Positions 2,909 through 12,627 of a stretch of 26,463 nucleotides of DNA are shown here, piece after piece. Numbering within the stretch: position 1 is the stretch's first letter; the number at the start of each line of letters is the position of its first letter. The stretch spans positions 1 through 26,463 of the IMG/VR virus record IMGVR_UViG_3300033429_000017; one strand, 5' to 3'. The position numbers and the translations under genes were made by a program. The notes under the pieces are model-generated. The model made no database searches. It saw only the letters and a list, made by a program, of their open reading frames with translations, and was not told the origin of the DNA. The DNA comes from a virus.

Positions 2909-3814
2909 ATGGCTCGCTACCGAACGGTTGATATCCGGATACACAGCGACGAAAAATATCGGAACCTCACCAAGCCCGAACCGTGCGGGCAATATTTGTT
3001 TCTCTATCTATTGATTGGTCCCCACACAGGACCCATTCCTGGGCTTTTTCGGCTGAGCCTCGCAGGCCTGGCCGACGAGCTTGGCTGGACCGTTGAAACC
3101 GTTTCGAAACCGTTTGCGGAATTGTTTCGAAACGGTATGGCGAAGGCCGACTGGGACGCCCGTTTGGTCTGGCTCCCGAACGCGCTGAAGTACAACCCGC
3201 CCGCCAACCCGAACGTGATCAAGGGCTGGGCGAAAGCGTGGGACGAGCTGCCGGAGTGCAGTCTAAAAGACGAAGCATATCGCGCATTTAGCTCATTCTT
3301 GGACGGATACTCGGAACCGTTCCGAAACGGTTTCGAAACGGTTTCGAAACCGTTTGGTAAACCGTTTCGAAAACAGGAACAGGAACAGGAACAGGAACAG
3401 GAAACAAATACTCGTGCAGCCGACGCTGACGCGCCGGGATTGATTGACGCGAAACCGAAAAACGGAAAGAAGCCCAGCGCGGCCGAGGTCGACGCAATCT
3501 GGCAACACTACCGGGCGCATCACCAGCGGGCGGTCGTGACGCTCCGGCGCGGGCGGAAAGAATACCGGCTGATTGAGCGGGCGCTGGAAGACTTCGGCGC
3601 CGATGACGTTCGGAAGGCCATAGACGGATACCATAGGAGCCCATGGCACACCGGGACCAACCCCAGCGGTAAGCAATACCTTGGCATCGACCTAATTCTG
3701 CGCGATGCCTCGAAAATTCAGGCCGGCATCGAGATGGCCGAGCCGCGCTCGAGCGGCGGCGGCCCGCGCACGCTAGTTGACTACCGACCGGGCGCGCACG
3801 ATACAAACCACTGA
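2909..3814 (+). CDS. phage replication initiator with winged-helix domain
   Basis: The product (301 residues) is an O-type replication initiator that would bind the origin and recruit the helicase encoded next. Residues 1-95 (opening MARYRTVDIRI) form a winged-helix DNA-binding domain with LADELGW before the recognition region. Residues 155-166 are a KQEQEQ-type linker, and residues 190-270 are a helical C-terminal domain of the kind seen in phage DnaB-loading proteins. The peptide ETVSKPF occurs twice (63-69 and 143-149) because the gene carries iteron-like DNA repeats in the same frame. I chose ATG 2909 (GAGG four bases before it) over the in-frame TTG at 2873 because the family begins at this motif. 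DnaD-like or O-like subfamily is not resolved. Confidence 0.8.
   Translation: MARYRTVDIRIHSDEKYRNLTKPEPCGQYLFLYLLIGPHTGPIPGLFRLSLAGLADELGWTVETVSKPFAELFRNGMAKADWDARLVWLPNALKYNPPANPNVIKGWAKAWDELPECSLKDEAYRAFSSFLDGYSEPFRNGFETVSKPFGKPFRKQEQEQEQEQETNTRAADADAPGLIDAKPKNGKKPSAAEVDAIWQHYRAHHQRAVVTLRRGRKEYRLIERALEDFGADDVRKAIDGYHRSPWHTGTNPSGKQYLGIDLILRDASKIQAGIEMAEPRSSGGGPRTLVDYRPGAHDTNH
3095..3135 (+). repeat. upstream iteron pair inside the initiator gene
   Basis: GTTTCGAAAC occurs at 3101-3110 and 3124-3133, each flanked by ACCG or CGGT. These copies match the main cluster at 3316-3372 and lie within the winged-helix coding region, about 200 bp upstream of it. They may be additional initiator-binding sites. 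Confidence 0.6.
3316..3403 (+). repeat. iteron cluster plus CAGGAA tract: candidate replication origin
   Basis: Palindromic TTTCGAAA units start at 3331, 3342 and 3365. Degenerate copies start at 3320 and 3353, so four successive units are spaced exactly 11 bp apart (one helical turn). Positions 3336-3355 form a perfect 20-bp palindrome, AAACGGTTTCGAAACCGTTT. Five perfect CAGGAA units follow at 3374-3403, giving a strongly purine-rich strand. Iterons followed by a strand-asymmetric purine-rich tract inside the initiator gene is the layout of the lambda origin in gene O. The repeats are directly visible; origin function is inferred. Confidence 0.7.
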
Positions 3815-3830: not shown

Positions 3831-5075
3831 ATGGACCCAACCACGGAAACCAGAATCATCGGCGCAGCGTTGTCTGAGCCGGGCCTATGGCTATCACACG
3901 CCGACAGAATCAACGGCGAGCTATTCTCAGCCAACCGGGCCCTTGCCTCGGCGCTCTGCGAGATGCGCGACGCAGGCCAGCCGACCGACCCGCAATCCGT
4001 GCACGCCTGGCTCGGCGCGCGCGGCCGGGGCGTCGCGATGTCGGACTTGCTCGAGCTCGCCGAGCATTCGCCGCTGTCGCCGGAGTCGATGGCGGCAGCC
4101 GTTGCCATGCTGCACAACCAGGCGAAGCGGGCGGCGCTCCACAAGCTAGGCAAAGCGCTGACCGAAACCAGCATCAACAGGCGGTATCATGTCGACGATG
4201 TCATGGCAGAAACCATGTCGACGCTAGCAGCCATCGGCGCGAGGTCGGCGCAGGCGCTGGAGCCTATCGGCGACGGTCTGAAGCGGGTCGTCAAAAACCT
4301 CGGCAAGCCGGTCGAGCGCACGGTGAAGACCGGGATATCAACCATCGACGCGGTAACGGGCGGCTTCAGGCCTGGCCAGCTCGTCGTGCTGGGCGCTAGG
4401 CCGAGCATGGGCAAGACATCGCTGGCGCTCGGCATCACGCGCCAAGCCGCATTGGCTGGCAAAACTGTGGCGTTTTTCAGCCTCGAAATGTCGTCCGACG
4501 ATGTCATTTGTAGGATACTGGCGGACCTAGGCGACGTCGACCTTGGCCGCATCATGCTGCACGACCTGCGCGAGCAGGACTTGACCGCCGTGCTGACGGC
4601 GGCGAACAAGCTACACAAGACCCGCGTTTTCATCGGAGAGAGCACGGACCAAATCGAGGGCGTCTGCACGCAACTCCAGCACCAGCACGGGCTCGACCTG
4701 GTCGTGGTCGATTACCTGCAGCTCATGAGCATCAGGGCCGAGAGTCGCGAGCAGCAAATTGCAACGCTGTCGCGCGGGCTCAAGCAACTGGCCAGGCGTG
4801 CCAAGGCGCCGGTCCTGGTCTTGTCCCAGCTCAACCGCAACTTGGAACAGCGGGTGAGCAAGCGGCCGCAGCTCAGCGACCTGCGCGAGTCCGGCGCCAT
4901 CGAGCAAGACGCCGACGTTGCGATGCTGCTCTGGCGGCGGAGTTACTACGACCCGGACGCGGACCAGACCGAGGCCGAGTTGGTTGTAGCCAAGCATCGC
5001 AACGGACCCGTCGGCGTGGTGCCGCTCGAGTGGGACGAGACGCGGGCCAGGTTCAGCGCGGGAAATCGCCAATGA
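3831..5075 (+). CDS. dnaB: DnaB-type replicative helicase
   Basis: The product (414 residues) is a hexameric ATP-dependent helicase that unwinds the fork during phage replication. Residues 1-100 form the N-terminal helical domain. A linker follows, then the RecA-like domain from about residue 160. It has Walker A GARPSMGKTS (188-197), SLEMS (217-221), Walker B VVVDYLQLM (291-299), LSQLNR (331-336) and the arginine-finger region RPQLSDLRESGAIEQDAD (345-362). The C-terminus ends with KHRNGPVG, normal for the family. Length is slightly below bacterial DnaB (about 450-470). ATG 3831 has an AAAAAGGAAAG ribosome site and lies 16 bp after the initiator gene. The TTG at 3777 would overlap that gene and is less likely. 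Confidence 0.95.
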   Translation: MDPTTETRIIGAALSEPGLWLSHADRINGELFSANRALASALCEMRDAGQPTDPQSVHAWLGARGRGVAMSDLLELAEHSPLSPESMAAAVAMLHNQAKRAALHKLGKALTETSINRRYHVDDVMAETMSTLAAIGARSAQALEPIGDGLKRVVKNLGKPVERTVKTGISTIDAVTGGFRPGQLVVLGARPSMGKTSLALGITRQAALAGKTVAFFSLEMSSDDVICRILADLGDVDLGRIMLHDLREQDLTAVLTAANKLHKTRVFIGESTDQIEGVCTQLQHQHGLDLVVVDYLQLMSIRAESREQQIATLSRGLKQLARRAKAPVLVLSQLNRNLEQRVSKRPQLSDLRESGAIEQDADVAMLLWRRSYYDPDADQTEAELVVAKHRNGPVGVVPLEWDETRARFSAGNRQ

Positions 5076-5287
5076 GGGGCCAATTTCGCGTTTTCAGTCT
5101 GCGACATAGGCCAGGACACCAGGGACGGCAGAAGAGCGGCAAAAAACCGCGCCGCTGCGACGCCTCGAAGGCGCTGGCGACCCCGGTTCGGCCCGGTCTG
5201 CGCGACGGCGTATCGCGGCGCGACGTCGCACGATGCGACTGCGGCCGGTGCCCGAATTGCTGGGCGACCGGCGAGCGCCGCCGATGA
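5072..5287 (+). CDS. small basic protein with cysteine cluster
   Basis: A 71-residue product starts at ATG 5072, which overlaps the helicase stop as ATGA, so it is probably made by translational coupling. The C-terminus holds CDCGRCPNC, four cysteines in nine residues that could bind a metal. The rest is very basic (many Arg and Lys), compatible with nucleic-acid binding. I do not recognise a family. The stop overlaps another ATGA at 5284, which opens a frame across the palindrome array. High GC makes spurious frames common, so confidence is moderate. Confidence 0.5.
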   Translation: MRGQFRVFSLRHRPGHQGRQKSGKKPRRCDASKALATPVRPGLRDGVSRRDVARCDCGRCPNCWATGERRR

Positions 5288-5293
5288 TTGAGT

Positions 5294-5448
5294 TTTTACA
5301 CGACCGTGTAAAAGCTCAGAACGGACGCCGCGACTATTTACACGACTGTGTAAAAGCACGTCCAACCAACCCAAAATACGTAAAGGAAAAACGAGTATTT
5401 ACACGACCGTGTAAAAGCACAGCGCGAGTATTTACACGACCGTGTAAA
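5294..5448 (+). repeat. four-copy palindrome array, TTTACAC-GACY-GTGTAAA
   Basis: Copies occupy 5295-5312, 5337-5354, 5398-5415 and 5431-5448, all in the same orientation, with start-to-start spacings of 42, 61 and 33 bp. Each has perfect 7-bp arms around a GACC or GACT centre, and the only difference between copies is in that centre. Flanks are also shared: GAGTA (or a variant) before and AAGCAC (or AAGCTC) after. The region is more AT-rich than its surroundings. Likely roles are binding sites for a dimeric repressor, an initiator or a partition-type protein. Read as RNA, each copy is a weak AU-rich hairpin. No par or repressor gene is in the window. Confidence 0.85.
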
Positions 5449-5509
5449 AGCACATGGAATCAAGCGCAAATAGGCGCAATCAGCAAAATTGCAACGGGAT
5501 AGGTGAATT

Positions 5510-5857
5510 ATGAATCGTGATATAGAGCATCTGGTCAGGCTGGTGATTTCGGAGATGCGCGACGCCGCCGCGCGCGTCGAGCGTCAGTCCGGCATGCTGC
5601 TGCGCGCGCGTTTGCGTGCGCGTTTCTGGCGCCGCAAGTGGCGCAATGTGAGACGTCGCTGGAAACAGCGCGCCCGCCCGCCGTCCGTGGGGCTCTGCGA
5701 GTGGCGGTCTAAGGAATCAAAATACGGCGTTTTATATTGGGAGTGCCGCTGGTGTGGCGTCACTACCTTGCGACCAACAACGATAAGCGAGCAGCGGCGC
5801 CTCGGTAGACAGTGCCCGGACGCGCCGCAGAACGGAGACGCAGTTGCTGCTGATTGA
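5510..5857 (+). CDS. hypothetical protein with zinc-ribbon-like cysteines
   Basis: The 115-residue product starts at ATG 5510 with AGGTG just upstream. Residues 1-30 are helical. Residues 31-55 are extremely basic (RARLRARFWRRKWRNVRRR), and residues 63-102 hold C63, C79, C82 and C102, with ECRWCG resembling half of a zinc ribbon. A DNA- or RNA-binding role is plausible. It sits directly downstream of the palindrome array and overlaps RusA by 14 bp, so it belongs to the replication/recombination operon. I recognise no family. Confidence 0.7.
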   Translation: MNRDIEHLVRLVISEMRDAAARVERQSGMLLRARLRARFWRRKWRNVRRRWKQRARPPSVGLCEWRSKESKYGVLYWECRWCGVTTLRPTTISEQRRLGRQCPDAPQNGDAVAAD

Positions 5858-6188
5858 AATACCGATGCCGACGCCGTCGCTGAACAGGCTCCAGCGTATG
5901 CACTTCCATGCGCGCAAGCGCTTGCGCGACCAATATGAGCGCATCTGTCGGGCTCGCGCGTCGAGCCTGCACCGCGCGCGGCCGGGCGAGCACAAGTGTA
6001 TTCGCATCGAGCGCCACGCGGCGCGCGAGCTTGACCACGATAATTTCGTCGGCGGATGCAAGCCGCTGGTTGACGCGCTCAACCGCGCCGGCCTGATTTG
6101 GGACGATAACCCAAAGCATCTGCGCGTCGAGTATCGCCAGGTCAAGGCGACCGGCAAAACGGCGCGTACGCTGATTGTGCTGCCCTAG
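5844..6188 (+). CDS. rusA: RusA-family Holliday junction resolvase
   Basis: The product (114 residues, close to E. coli RusA's 120) cuts Holliday junctions made during phage recombination and replication. The active-site pattern is present: LDHDNF with D64 and D66, K73, D77 in VDAL, and WDDNP with D87/D88. These correspond to the acidic pair, lysine and third aspartate of RusA. The start is TTG 5844, supported by GGAG six bases upstream; a later ATG at 5865 would remove the first beta strand. It ends the plus-strand operon, and its TAG stop shares two bases with the stop of the convergent endolysin gene. Confidence 0.9.
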   Translation: MLLIEIPMPTPSLNRLQRMHFHARKRLRDQYERICRARASSLHRARPGEHKCIRIERHAARELDHDNFVGGCKPLVDALNRAGLIWDDNPKHLRVEYRQVKATGKTARTLIVLP

Positions 6189-7064: not shown

Positions 7065-9779
7065 CTAGGTCGCGCTGGTAAGGCCCGCGCCTTCCAGCGC
7101 ATCAATGATTGCTGTGATTGCGGTGATTGACGTCGCCAGGTCGGTCGGGTCGCTGATTTTCGCCGGCTGCGACGCTGGTGGTGTGACGCCGAACGCGCCA
7201 AAGCCTTTGCCGATTTGTAGCTCCTGGTCGTACGAACCGCCGATTGTGCCGATTGTGCAGCGCCCGGACGCCGTGGTCGCTGCAAGCCGGCCGATGGCTA
7301 TCGCCTGGTCGTGTCCGCTGCCGACCGTCGCGGTCGCTCCAATGGCGACGCCATAATCCGCGCGGACCCTCGCGGTCGAGCCACCGATTGCGATACCGTA
7401 CGGATTATCCACCCGCGCCGACGTGCCCATTGCTATGGCCGACGTTGCGCCCGCATCGACCAGCGGATTGCGGCCCAACGCTAACGCACCGATGGCGTTG
7501 GCGTCCGCGCCTTCTCCGATGGCGACGGCGCCGGAATAACCGGCATCGACACCAGCGCCTTCGCCGATGGCAATCGATTTTAGCGCGCCAGGTTCGACAG
7601 CCGCGTTGCGCCCAACGGCTATCGCGCCATCGCAACCCGAGGCGGGCGTGCTGTTGCCGACGACTGCGTTGTATCCCAGCGCCACGGCGCCGGTGCTGCT
7701 GCCGCTGTTCGACGCGTAGACCTTCGAGCCGTAGCCTGTCGCGACCGCGTAGGTTTGGCCAGCGCCCACCAGGGCGTCAGCGCCAACTGCCATCGCGCCC
7801 GCGACGCCTGCGCCGCCGAGGGCGCCAACGGCTGCGCCCGCTCCTATGGCCATGCCGCCGAGCGTAAACCCGCTCGCGACGTCGAAAACTCGACTGTTGT
7901 AACCAATTGCGAGCGACGTCAATGCGGCGTCGCCGACGAACGCGCCGTTACCTATTGCAATCGCGGCCACACAACCGGCGCCCGCCGACGTCCCTGAGCC
8001 GACGATGGTTGCGTTGGTGGCGCCGGGGTCGACAACGCCGGCCTCGCCGATACAGACCGAAGCCTCGCAGCCCGCGCCGGGCGTTGCGTTGCCTATTGCC
8101 GCGTTGCGCCCAATTGCCAACGCTCCGGCGCTATCGCCGGATGAAACGTCATAGACTTTCGCGGTAAAGCCCAGCGCCATGGCGCCGATATTCGCCGAGC
8201 CGGTCACGGCCGCGCCTTGCCCTGTCGAGATTGCGCCGGTTGCGTCCGCGAGGGCCTGGTAACCGACCGCAACGACGTTGGAGCCCGACGCCTTCGACGA
8301 TGCTCCTACCGCCACGCCATTGATGGCGCCCGGGTCGACAACCGCCAGCTCGCCCATACAGACCGCCGCGTTACAGCCAGCGCCAGGCGTAGACGCGCCG
8401 ACCGCGGCCTCGTAGCCGATGCAAATCGCGCCGTCGGAGTCGCCGGACGAAACCGCGTAGACCTTGGCCTTGGCTCCGAGCGCCAGGGCCGTGGCCTGCG
8501 CTGATAGACTGCGCTCGCCGAGCGCGATTGACCTGGCCTCGAGGGCGTCGCAGTCGTAGCCGATGGCGATGCCGCGCACGCCGCCGCCGACCTCGGCCTG
8601 CGGACCGATGGCGATGCTATTCGAGGCGCCGGTATTGACTCGCGAGTCGAGCCCGATGCTCACGGATGCGTCGACGCCCGTGGTGCCGTCGCCAGTCCGG
8701 GCGTTACGGCCTATCGCGAGGCCGCCCGTGCTGGCGCCGCTGGAAGGGTTCGGCACGGTTGCCGAGCCGCCGAGTGCGACGGCCGAAACCGCGCCGGCCA
8801 CTGCAGACGCACCGACGGCGAGGGTTGTCGATGCGGACACCGCCGCCTGATAGCCGACAGCGACCGAGCTCGCAGCGGCTGCTGGAATATCGACGTTGTA
8901 GCCAACGGCCACGCAATTGCCGCCGGTGTCGATTGATGCGTTTTGCCCGACGGCGACGCTGTTTTGGCCTGCGACAGTGCACGAGCCACCAACGGCAATA
9001 CCGTTATTTGCGGTCACGCTGGCCGATGAGCCGACGGCAACGGCGAAGGTTGCGTTTGCCACCGAGCCCCAGCCCAAGGCCACACCAGCCGCGCCAGTAG
9101 ATACCGCGCCGGAGCCGAACGCCTCTGAGCTGCCGCCCGCGCCGGGCTTACTGATGCTACCTGCGGCCGGAAACAGCATGGCGCCCGCGTCGCTCAGCGT
9201 GACGCCGGAGTCCTGGACCGTGTCGCCGCCGGTGCCGTTCCAGCGCGTCAAGGCGTGGTCGGTGCTGCTCGGCGGCAGGCCGATGCTTGGCGCCGGGTCG
9301 AGCCACGATGTCGCGCCGCCGCCGCCCGCGGTCAGCAATTGGCCGGTCGTCGCTGCGCCGCTCGACATATTGGCCGGGTCTAAGGCGGCCTGGTCGACCG
9401 CCAACGTACGGTCGGCGCTCAAGTCGCCGCCGCCGTTGATGCCGGTGCCGTTGTTGATGGCACGGGTCGTCGGGACGTGACCCGCGACGCTGCCGACGTT
9501 CGTGATATTCTGACCTACGAACGAAACCGCGCCATCGGGTTTTTTGATAATTTTACCGGTCGCGCCGTCGAAAACGGCGATGTCGCTATCGGCGACGCCG
9601 CCCGCTGGCCCGGTGACATCACCGAGGCCGGTCTCTGTCGCCCAGTCGATGCCGCCCGCGCCATCCGCGGTTAGGACCTCGCCGGCGGATGCGCCCGCGC
9701 TGCTCATATTGCCGGGCTCGAGCTGGGTCTCGTCGATGATGCCTATCGGCTGGACTGTGGCGATTTTGAGGTCGACCAT
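7065..9779 (-). CDS. long tail fibre with YadA-type trimeric adhesin head repeats
   Basis: The 904-residue product starts at ATG 9779 with AGGAG upstream. Residues 1-225 are a phage-like N-terminal part with short repeats (QLEPGNMSS and ALDPANMSS). Residues 225-850 are dozens of about 14-residue repeats of the form AVGxxAxV, AIGxxA or ALGxxA. They match the left-handed parallel beta-roll of trimeric autotransporter heads (Hep/Hag, YadA head). The last 40 residues form a helix (SITAITAIIDALEGAGL) that could be a trimer cap. No signal peptide, stalk or membrane beta-barrel is present, so this is not a bacterial adhesin. Position at the end of the tail operon supports a receptor-binding fibre. 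The receptor is unknown. Confidence 0.85.
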   Translation of the reverse strand: MVDLKIATVQPIGIIDETQLEPGNMSSAGASAGEVLTADGAGGIDWATETGLGDVTGPAGGVADSDIAVFDGATGKIIKKPDGAVSFVGQNITNVGSVAGHVPTTRAINNGTGINGGGDLSADRTLAVDQAALDPANMSSGAATTGQLLTAGGGGATSWLDPAPSIGLPPSSTDHALTRWNGTGGDTVQDSGVTLSDAGAMLFPAAGSISKPGAGGSSEAFGSGAVSTGAAGVALGWGSVANATFAVAVGSSASVTANNGIAVGGSCTVAGQNSVAVGQNASIDTGGNCVAVGYNVDIPAAAASSVAVGYQAAVSASTTLAVGASAVAGAVSAVALGGSATVPNPSSGASTGGLAIGRNARTGDGTTGVDASVSIGLDSRVNTGASNSIAIGPQAEVGGGVRGIAIGYDCDALEARSIALGERSLSAQATALALGAKAKVYAVSSGDSDGAICIGYEAAVGASTPGAGCNAAVCMGELAVVDPGAINGVAVGASSKASGSNVVAVGYQALADATGAISTGQGAAVTGSANIGAMALGFTAKVYDVSSGDSAGALAIGRNAAIGNATPGAGCEASVCIGEAGVVDPGATNATIVGSGTSAGAGCVAAIAIGNGAFVGDAALTSLAIGYNSRVFDVASGFTLGGMAIGAGAAVGALGGAGVAGAMAVGADALVGAGQTYAVATGYGSKVYASNSGSSTGAVALGYNAVVGNSTPASGCDGAIAVGRNAAVEPGALKSIAIGEGAGVDAGYSGAVAIGEGADANAIGALALGRNPLVDAGATSAIAMGTSARVDNPYGIAIGGSTARVRADYGVAIGATATVGSGHDQAIAIGRLAATTASGRCTIGTIGGSYDQELQIGKGFGAFGVTPPASQPAKISDPTDLATSITAITAIIDALEGAGLTSAT
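7490..8470 (-). repeat. long super-repeats inside the fibre gene
   Basis: On top of the 14-residue motif, a longer unit starts with KVY..SSGDS and continues through TPGAGC, VC.GE and VDPGA. It begins near 8464, 8160, 7890 and 7725, the last two copies being more diverged. The first two copies are about 100 residues apart. This indicates internal duplication and a target for recombination that changes fibre length. Confidence 0.65.
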
Positions 9780-9788
9780 GGGGCGCTC

Positions 9789-10094
9789 CTACGCTTGCGG
9801 CCGTACAATCAGCACGGGCGTTTTCTCGGCCGGCAGGCGCGTCACGGTCGTGCCGGTATTAAACACGTATTCGATTCGGTGCGTCCCGGCGACCAGGTCG
9901 AGGGCGTCCCACACGACGTGAAACGTGCCGGCCGCGACGTCGTCGATGATGGCCGTTTTGCTGAGCTCGCCGCCGGACTCGTAACGGACCGTGACCGTGA
10001 TGCTGACGAAGGCCGTCAGGTCAAAGCCGGCGTCCGTAAACAGGCCTGGCCCGGTGTTGCCTTCGACCTCGTGTATTACCGTGCAAGTCGTCAT
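9789..10094 (-). CDS. BppU-like beta-sandwich protein, second copy
   Basis: The 101-residue product starts at ATG 10094, overlapping the upstream stop as ATGA. It is predicted to be all beta: ITVTVRYESGG, then FHVVWDALDLVAGTHRIEYVF, a pattern I associate with BppU N-terminal or Ig-like baseplate/fibre adaptor domains. It sits directly before the long fibre gene (9-bp gap), so it may help join that fibre to the baseplate. The family assignment is from pattern memory only; a generic Ig-like domain is the alternative. Confidence 0.6.
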   Translation of the reverse strand: MTTCTVIHEVEGNTGPGLFTDAGFDLTAFVSITVTVRYESGGELSKTAIIDDVAAGTFHVVWDALDLVAGTHRIEYVFNTGTTVTRLPAEKTPVLIVRPQA

Positions 10095-10489: not shown

Positions 10490-12120
10490 CGTGTGAACCT
10501 CCCACCGACGGTTGCCAGCCAGCGGACCATGCCGCCGACCGTGATGGTCTTTTTCGTGCCCGGGTAGGCGGGCCGTGCTGTGACGGCCGAGCTGGCCGCT
10601 ATGACCGCCGCCGCCGAAACGTTGGCGCTTACGTCCGCGGTAAGCGACGACTGGCCGCTGACTGTCGCCGAGACCGGAGCCAATGCGCTTACGTCCGCGG
10701 TAAGCGCGGACTGGCCTGCGACTGTGGCGCTCGCAGGCTGCGCCCTGGTCACGGTCGCGGTTGCGCCGGATGCGCCCGCGACCGTGGTCGACACGGGGAC
10801 CAGAGCGGATAGGTCCGCAACGGCGGAGCTTTGTCCGGTCACCAGTGAGGAGACTGGCACCGTTGCGGACAGCGACCCAGCAACGGCAGACTGAGCCACG
10901 ACTTGAGCCGCCGCACCGGCCGTGATTGTGGCCGCGGCGGTTGTTGCAGATTGCGCCGTGATTGTGGTGCTCAACGTGCGAATACGGTCGCCGGTGACCG
11001 TCAGCGCGGACTGGCCTGCGACTGTGGCCGAGACCGGCACGTTGACGCTGGCGTCGGCCGCCACGCTCGACTGGCCTGCGACCGTGGCGGCCACCGGAAC
11101 GGTTGCGCTAGCCGTCGCGGACAGCGCGGACTGGCCGACAATTGGGATACCGCCCACGCTCGCGCGGACGTTGGCCGCGGCGGTCAGTGCGGACTGCGCC
11201 AGGACCGTCGCCCTGATTGGCGCCTCCGGCCGCATGTCGGCAGTCAGTGTGCTCTGCCCTGCGATGGTTGCGGCAAGCGAGGCCGTCACGCTGACGCTGG
11301 CCGCCAGCGCGGATTGCCCGGCAACCGTTGCCGCCGCGTCACGGGCTCGCGTCATCGTCGCAGCGACCGCGCTCTGCCCGGCAACGGTTGCGTTGCCGAA
11401 TTCGTACCATAAATCTTGCGCCGCAATCGGCGCCATAGGTCGGACGATGCGCGGATTATCGACGGCGCCAGGGGCGTTTTCGAGCGTGCCGAACAGGCCG
11501 CCGCGGTGGTCTGGCTCCGGCGAGGCGCGCGAGGCGAGCTCCATTAGAAAGCATGGAATCGGGCGCAGGAATAGCGGCGAGAAGCCAGCCGCCATCATTT
11601 GGTGCTCTGCTAGGGTCAAAAGCCGCGAGCACGCGAAGACTTGGGCGACCTCGCCGCTCAGATAGTTGGTGTTGGGCGCGTTGTACGCCGCCGCGATGAC
11701 CATGGGCGTGGTCGTGTCGACCGTGCCCGGTGTATTGGCGACCTTGGTCCCGATGATGGCGCCGTCGTACCAAATCTGGAGTTGGCCAGTTGGCGAACCG
11801 TCCGTGTGGTCGGCCGCCAGCAGATGCCAGTTGCCGTCCGTGATATTGGTCGCGGTGCCCTCGGCGCGCTGTCGCCCGGTGATATCGGTCTCGACATCCC
11901 AACGGATGGTCTCGTTGACCCCGCTATTAAACTTTAACTCCCAACCCTCACCGCCGTCGAAGCCGCCGGCGCGCTTACCGAGAATCATCGAGTCATTAGC
12001 GGGCGCGGTCGGGAACCGGAGCCACGCAAAAACGGTGAAATCACCGCCGCCGAAATTGATAGACGCAGCGCTCGGGACGCTGATTGACTGGCTGGAGCCG
12101 GCCGAAAATGAGCGCGCCAC
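10486..12120 (-). CDS. LamG-domain protein with about fourteen 20-residue repeats
   Basis: The 544-residue product uses GTG 12120 with AGGGGAAG upstream. Residues 1-175 are a concanavalin-like LamG domain: SISVPSAASINFGGGDFTVFAWL at the start, then WHLLAADHTDG and QLQIWYDGAIIG, a common carbohydrate-binding fold in phage fibres. A linker (176-240) leads to about 14 tandem repeats of roughly 20 residues with consensus ATVAGQSALTADVSA plus a short linker, then a basic tail. The repeats probably form an extended beta structure that displays or trimerises the lectin domain. Copy number could vary by recombination. It lies in the host-recognition block, with ATGA coupling to the next gene. Confidence 0.8.
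   Translation of the reverse strand: MARSFSAGSSQSISVPSAASINFGGGDFTVFAWLRFPTAPANDSMILGKRAGGFDGGEGWELKFNSGVNETIRWDVETDITGRQRAEGTATNITDGNWHLLAADHTDGSPTGQLQIWYDGAIIGTKVANTPGTVDTTTPMVIAAAYNAPNTNYLSGEVAQVFACSRLLTLAEHQMMAAGFSPLFLRPIPCFLMELASRASPEPDHRGGLFGTLENAPGAVDNPRIVRPMAPIAAQDLWYEFGNATVAGQSAVAATMTRARDAAATVAGQSALAASVSVTASLAATIAGQSTLTADMRPEAPIRATVLAQSALTAAANVRASVGGIPIVGQSALSATASATVPVAATVAGQSSVAADASVNVPVSATVAGQSALTVTGDRIRTLSTTITAQSATTAAATITAGAAAQVVAQSAVAGSLSATVPVSSLVTGQSSAVADLSALVPVSTTVAGASGATATVTRAQPASATVAGQSALTADVSALAPVSATVSGQSSLTADVSANVSAAAVIAASSAVTARPAYPGTKKTITVGGMVRWLATVGGRFTR
10560..11391 (-). repeat. tandem array of 60-bp coding repeats
   Basis: About 14 units of 60 bp (one of 63 bp) encode the GQS repeats of the LamG protein. 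DNA copies such as GACTGGCCTGCGACTGTGGC recur with few changes, whereas the first and last units are more diverged. This suggests recent expansion in the middle of the array. Confidence 0.8.
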
Positions 12121-12132
12121 GGGCTTCCCCTA

Positions 12133-12627
12133 TCAGGTCTCGCGTATTTCGATGCGTGCCAACTCGGCGTCGCCGACCATGGTGTCGGCGGCGTTCGTGG
12201 CGTCCCTGGTGATGCGCAGCCGGAAAGACTCGCCCGCCGCCAGGGAATCAATCTGCGCGCCGTCGGTGAACGCAATCTCATCGTAGGCGCGGGCGCCATT
12301 GGTCGCCGGAGCGCTTGCGTTGACCGCCTGGGCCGTGGCGAATGAGTCGCTGTCGATGTCCGTCACGTCCTCTTGGTGCCGCTCGAAGGCCGCCAGCCAA
12401 CGCGTGACGCCCGTGGTCGCGGTCGTCGCGGACCATATGATGGCCAGCGTCAGGCCGCCGCCGTTGTAGTTGCGCGGCAGCAGCGTCTCGAAGTCCAGGT
12501 TTTCGTTCGCCGCAGCGTCGAAGTCCCACACGAGATGGTTGTTGCGCGTATCAAACTGAGGCGCCGCGGTCGCAGGCGGCGCACCGGCCTGGGCGTTGAA
12601 CACCAGAAGCGTTTGTCCGGAGGCCAT
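12133..12627 (-). CDS. conserved phage structural protein, probable fibre-associated beta-sandwich
   Basis: The product (164 residues) starts at ATG 12627, overlapping the upstream stop as TAATG. It contains FDTRNNHLVWDFDAAANENLDFE, then LPRNYNGGGLTLAI, DIDSDSFATAQAV, IAFTDGAQIDSLAAGESFRLRITRD and ADTMVGDAELARIEI. I recognise this as a recurrent family of unnamed proteins near tail-fibre genes in proteobacterial phages, without known biochemical function. Strand-rich sequence suggests a jelly-roll or Ig-like decoration or receptor-binding head. It is paired with the small helical gene just upstream, as in other phages. Confidence 0.7.
   Translation of the reverse strand: MASGQTLLVFNAQAGAPPATAAPQFDTRNNHLVWDFDAAANENLDFETLLPRNYNGGGLTLAIIWSATTATTGVTRWLAAFERHQEDVTDIDSDSFATAQAVNASAPATNGARAYDEIAFTDGAQIDSLAAGESFRLRITRDATNAADTMVGDAELARIEIRET

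Follow-up and report, generated by a model that had tools for sequence, protein, structure and literature searches.

Lambda-type iterons sit inside the replication gene O. Three palindromic CI sites with the half-site AGTTCAYR have been described for TP901-1 and Staphylococcus phage phi13 (PMC8516035). The TyrR box reads TGTAAA-N6-TTTACA (PMC4374768), and the CopR/CopY operator reads RNYKACANNYGTMRNY (PMC7253601). Here we analysed a 26.5-kb virus fragment, the whole 26,463-nt stretch of which we call the window, and examined an array of four palindromes near the end of its early operon. As in CI-type operators, the array repeats a dyad-symmetric site about 15-20 bp in length. It has the same hexamers and the same 6-bp centre as the TyrR box but in the opposite order (TTTACA-N6-TGTAAA), and by this hexamer order it is not a TyrR box. 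With the CopR/CopY operator it has the TACA...TGTA symmetry in common, whereas the centre is 2 bp in CopR/CopY and 6 bp here, at odds with the ACA-N2-YGT spacing of that operator. We tentatively read the array as a lineage-specific operator-type cluster in non-coding DNA for a dimeric phage regulator, a reading that we place just short of an even chance.

Sequence and arrangement of the palindromes

The window contains four exact matches to TTTACACNNNNGTGTAAA, an 18-base word of the form TTTACAC-GACY-GTGTAAA. All four have the same orientation, and the start-to-start steps between them are 42, 61 and 33 bp:

5295-5312, + strand: palindrome copy 1, TTTACACGACCGTGTAAA, centre GACC; its arms extend to 5289-5318
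5337-5354, + strand: palindrome copy 2, TTTACACGACTGTGTAAA, centre GACT; exact motif match
5398-5415, + strand: palindrome copy 3, TTTACACGACCGTGTAAA, centre GACC; exact motif match
5431-5448, + strand: palindrome copy 4, TTTACACGACCGTGTAAA, centre GACC; its 30-nt unit is that of copy 3

When up to three mismatches were allowed, the record gave five motif matches against a mean of 0.15 in shuffled sequences, and no shuffle reached five. Among palindromes with 7-bp arms, none in the record other than this one shows comparable repetition; next in rank come the inner part of the array sites, present three times, and a palindrome present twice. In three of the array palindromes the arms measure 8 bp (TTTACACG/CGTGTAAA), and the palindrome of copy 1 is longer, reading TGAGTTTTTACACG-AC-CGTGTAAAAGCTCA.

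Aligned in register, the copies share a unit of about 30 nt that runs from -6 to +23 (yGAsTw-TTTACACGACyGTGTAAA-AGCwCr). Identity among copies is 17-18 of 18 bases in the core and 3-6 of six on each side, where the partly conserved, asymmetric flanks read GA.T and AGC.C, and it approaches background beyond these flanks, starting at -7 and at +24. Such a sharp fall of identity outside the core is expected for a protected site. Since copies 3 and 4 are identical across 30 nt at a spacing of 33 bp, they probably arose by a recent tandem duplication, which would leave about three independent copies. Relative to one helix face, the palindrome centres deviate by no more than about 2 bp (Monte-Carlo P 0.024, post hoc), and near-cofacial centres would suit cooperative binding.

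A sequence-only reading of the window had described four palindromes with invariant 7-bp arms, a variable centre and irregular spacing, and the exact matches, the shuffle test and the measured steps all reproduce that description. Its end of the array (5448) is correct and its start (5294) is one base early. It had also taken both orientation and flanking bases to be shared, which holds fully for the former and only in part for the latter.

We also searched for the motif in wider collections. A scan of viral contigs returned the 18-bp motif in 22 contigs, as single isolated copies in unrelated contexts and, by rough estimate, not above chance. A relaxed scan of viral contigs for arrays with two TTTACA-N6-TGTAAA units gave two matches, L076 (54-bp period) and L077, both ruled out as the same element by their other centres, spacing and contexts. 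In L076, another phage contig, positions 961-1176 hold a compound palindrome built around TTTACA-N6-TGTAAA and present in four copies of 54 nt each; they occupy a gap close to terminase-like genes. A peptide similarity (FTxxCK) shared by the window and L076 was set aside, since any in-frame TTTACA-N6-TGTAAA encodes it. In genomes, the relaxed scan found mostly Bacteroidales tandem repeats of TTTACA-N6-TGTAAA with a 22-bp period (MAGs L079, L083, L085, L087 and L090, among others), the rest lying in unrelated bacteria; one Alloprevotella MAG has TTTACA-N6-TGTAAA arrays at several loci. Arrays with the array's own arms and centre were found in neither the viral nor the genome collections, BLASTN against phages and plasmids gave no match, and no further copy of the motif lies at another promoter within the 26.5 kb.

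Gene neighbourhood and comparison with a collinear relative

Relatives were sought in the collections searched via DnaB, RecT, the initiator, the 115-aa protein downstream of the array and a tail protein. One viral contig is collinear with the window, IMGVR_UViG_3300038948_000007 (L045/G001, 42.9 kb), and no other contig was found to share this part of the early region. The tail protein led to further related contigs, but these gave neither a motif nor an early-region match and are thus uninformative on the array slot; a baseplate-protein search of genomes returned no relatives. On the + strand of the window, the early genes run in the order exonuclease, RecT, 81-aa protein, initiator, DnaB, 71-aa ORF, array gap, 115-aa protein and RusA, and the lysis and tail genes on the - strand converge on rusA at 6185. 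The features around the array are as follows:

5072-5287, + strand: 71-aa Cys-rich ORF (CxCGRCPxCWA), the upstream neighbour; a similar motif lies in the same place in L045
5288-5509, no strand: AT-rich non-coding gap with the array, judged by GC and codon usage
5510-5857, + strand: 115-aa basic Cys-motif protein, the downstream neighbour, 48% identical to its L045 homologue
5844-6188, + strand: RusA-like Holliday junction resolvase, the last early gene

The array had been placed behind dnaB; it does lie downstream, by about 0.2 kb, but not directly, the 71-aa ORF intervening. This ORF has no Pfam match. Of those window proteins that were scanned, none was identified as a DNA-binding regulator. 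From the 42.9 kb of the relative and the 26.5 kb of the window we estimate that about 16 kb of the genome lies outside the fragment, and the regulator region probably lies there. The 81-aa protein (2058-2303, + strand) carries an Acb2/Tad1 hairpin domain (Pfam PF24729, E 1.5e-14) and has no PADLOC entry; its relatives include anti-defence sponge proteins, which sequester cyclic nucleotides. A 904-aa repetitive protein on the - strand (7065-9779) has a sub-threshold YadA-head match and is possibly a tail fibre or adhesin.

Besides the 115-aa protein, identity to L045 is 64% for the initiator, 57% for DnaB, 71% for a tail protein and, in the best segment, 60% for RecT. In L045 the slot of the array, flanked by the Cys-rich gene and the homologue of the 115-aa protein, is taken up by two short ORFs (12109-12306 and 12303-12473) whose stops and starts overlap. 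They carry CxxC motifs and match Pfam Zn-ribbon entries weakly and below threshold. The array is absent from this slot, and nothing within two mismatches of the motif occurs anywhere in the 42.9-kb contig. As far as can be seen from this one informative relative, the array is specific to the lineage of the window. Elsewhere in L045, ahead of the early genes, lies an ORF (5281-5538) that is weakly HTH-like, below threshold; this region falls off the left end of the window.

The sequence-only reading had let its case hang on conservation of the arms in related phages, and on this count its suggestion of an auxiliary origin or centromere-like site is weakened, the one collinear relative having neither array nor motif. 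Operators differ between related phages, so this absence does not refute a phage-specific repressor or regulator site; a relative that differs exactly at the array slot is what would be seen with phage-specific regulatory sites.

A second set of repeats, GTTTCGAAAC, lies at 3099-3372, inside the lambda-O/DnaD-like initiator gene. Since the L045 initiator gene has kept GTTTCGAAAC-type repeats too (9754-10051), these are likely origin iterons. The sequences of GTTTCGAAAC and TTTACACGACCGTGTAAA differ, and only the iterons are kept in the relative; the array is not of the initiator-iteron type, just as the two sets had been judged unrelated from the start. A CAGGAA run coding EQEQEQ is also present in the initiator gene, at 3374-3406 of the window and 10051-10105 of L045, and in another initiator homologue, L101.

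These comparisons bear on the possibility of a centromere-like site or auxiliary origin, at which a ParB-like or replication protein would load on the four sites for plasmid partition or for opening of AT-rich DNA. Repetition and clustering of palindromes where the record is richest in AT, so close behind dnaB, would suit such a site. It is nevertheless weakened by the collinear relative, which has no array and no motif to two mismatches while its initiator-gene repeats are kept, and no ParA/ParB-like family was found among the early-region proteins scanned in this incomplete genome; we regard it as unlikely.

Folding and coding status of the AT-rich gap

The GC content at 5284-5510 is 43.6%, against 64.6% for the whole record, which bears out the earlier description of the gap as AT-rich, and the lowest-GC 168-bp segment of the record (5364-5531) overlaps the array gap. 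In the gap, the + strand yielded no sigma-70-like promoter and the - strand a single weak one, with the reservation that the host's sigma factors may differ.

The array region folds better than shuffled sequences (z -4.7), and copy 1 forms a hairpin of 13 bp with -15.6 kcal/mol. Stems with GACY loops in the early transcript could control mRNA stability or translation, or bind an RNA-binding protein; every copy faces the same way with respect to transcription, and the centre change in copy 2 would still permit a G-U pair. However, the hairpins of copies 2-4 are weak (-5.8 to -7.6 kcal/mol), with the pairs beyond the arms broken, and bases beyond the arms are conserved without pairing. Since any palindrome folds well, and the array region matches no Rfam family, such RNA hairpins are also on the unlikely side.

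An alternative is a small palindromic element, mobile or amplified by slippage and functionless for the phage. It would agree with a sharp 30-nt unit in one orientation, with the identity of copies 3 and 4, and with a relative that lacks it. Yet it has no copies elsewhere in the record and no dispersed family with the array's arms and centre in the viral and genome collections scanned, and we hold this explanation to be rather improbable.

An ATG at 5284 overlaps the upstream stop (ATGA) and starts a 72-codon frame that runs across the array, and the short ORFs in the L045 slot start likewise. The array might on this ground be a small gene of 72 aa whose repeats encode (D/E)YLHDRVKA and are now partly frameshifted, for which we see a slim chance. 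The codon score of the array frame (-0.81) is below that of every one of 75 equally long chunks of real genes (mean +0.31, minimum -0.26). This measure has its limits, as the neighbouring 71-aa and 115-aa ORFs are also low (about -0.25), though they score far above the array frame. TTA codons, used 1.1 times per 1000 codons phage-wide, occur in copies 1 and 2. The 61-bp step from copy 2 to copy 3 shifts the repeat into another frame while the DNA sequence is kept, so that the repeats stand in two frames. No homologue of the 72-aa array peptide was found, and tblastn of the phage collection gave no match for its ORF, for the alternative frame or for the 115-aa protein. The codon usage of the array gap is non-coding. 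Least probable of all, and by our estimate very improbable, is an orientation-specific unit of about 30 nt gained in one phage lineage and multiplied in its early operon as a new type of nucleoprotein or RNA control site, with a binder of an undescribed family, possibly one of the small Cys-motif proteins next to it.

A proposed operator-type cluster and its counterparts

Binding of the array by a dimeric protein had been proposed from the sequence; the sites, their repetition and their AT-rich non-coding gap all stand. A dimeric binder fits best, given the invariant arms, the DNA-level unit, the non-coding composition, the AT-rich gap and the near-cofacial spacing; from these we infer the binder, its dimeric nature, its cooperativity and the regulatory outcome. 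In the operator-cluster reading, the regulator would be a dimeric sequence-specific protein, most likely phage-encoded, in the part of the genome outside the fragment. Each 18-bp palindrome would be bound by a dimer, with one subunit per 8-bp half-site (TTTACACG), and several adjacent dimers, on almost one face of the helix, would build a nucleoprotein patch. This patch may modulate transcription that crosses the gap or starts in it and leads into the possible targets, the 115-aa gene and rusA, by roadblock, repression or activation. Against the operator-cluster reading, the scanned window proteins yielded no DNA-binding regulator and the + strand of the gap no sigma-70-like promoter; the 26.5 kb hold no further copy at another promoter, and no relative carries the array; the orientation is shared and the flanks are asymmetric, neither of which a symmetric dimer site requires; and copies 3 and 4 look duplicated, which lowers the effective copy number.

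If confirmed, the array would mark a point of phage-specific control within the early operon and would supply a defined 18-bp bait for a regulator search. The phage group is barely sampled, and in it the probable origin repeats are conserved and the second array is not.

Among known systems, the array resembles lambda-type iterons in its clustered dyad repeats, their similar length and their position near replication genes. The equivalent of those iterons here, however, is the GTTTCGAAAC set in the initiator gene, which is conserved in L045, whereas the array is not. The array differs from the CI-type operators of temperate phages in its half-site sequence, which is unrelated, and in its location, which is not between divergent repressor and lytic genes, no repressor gene having been found in the record. 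It resembles them in having clustered dyad-symmetric sites in a phage regulatory gap, and our reading leaves the known principles of phage regulation unchallenged: the array would be a familiar kind of control region.
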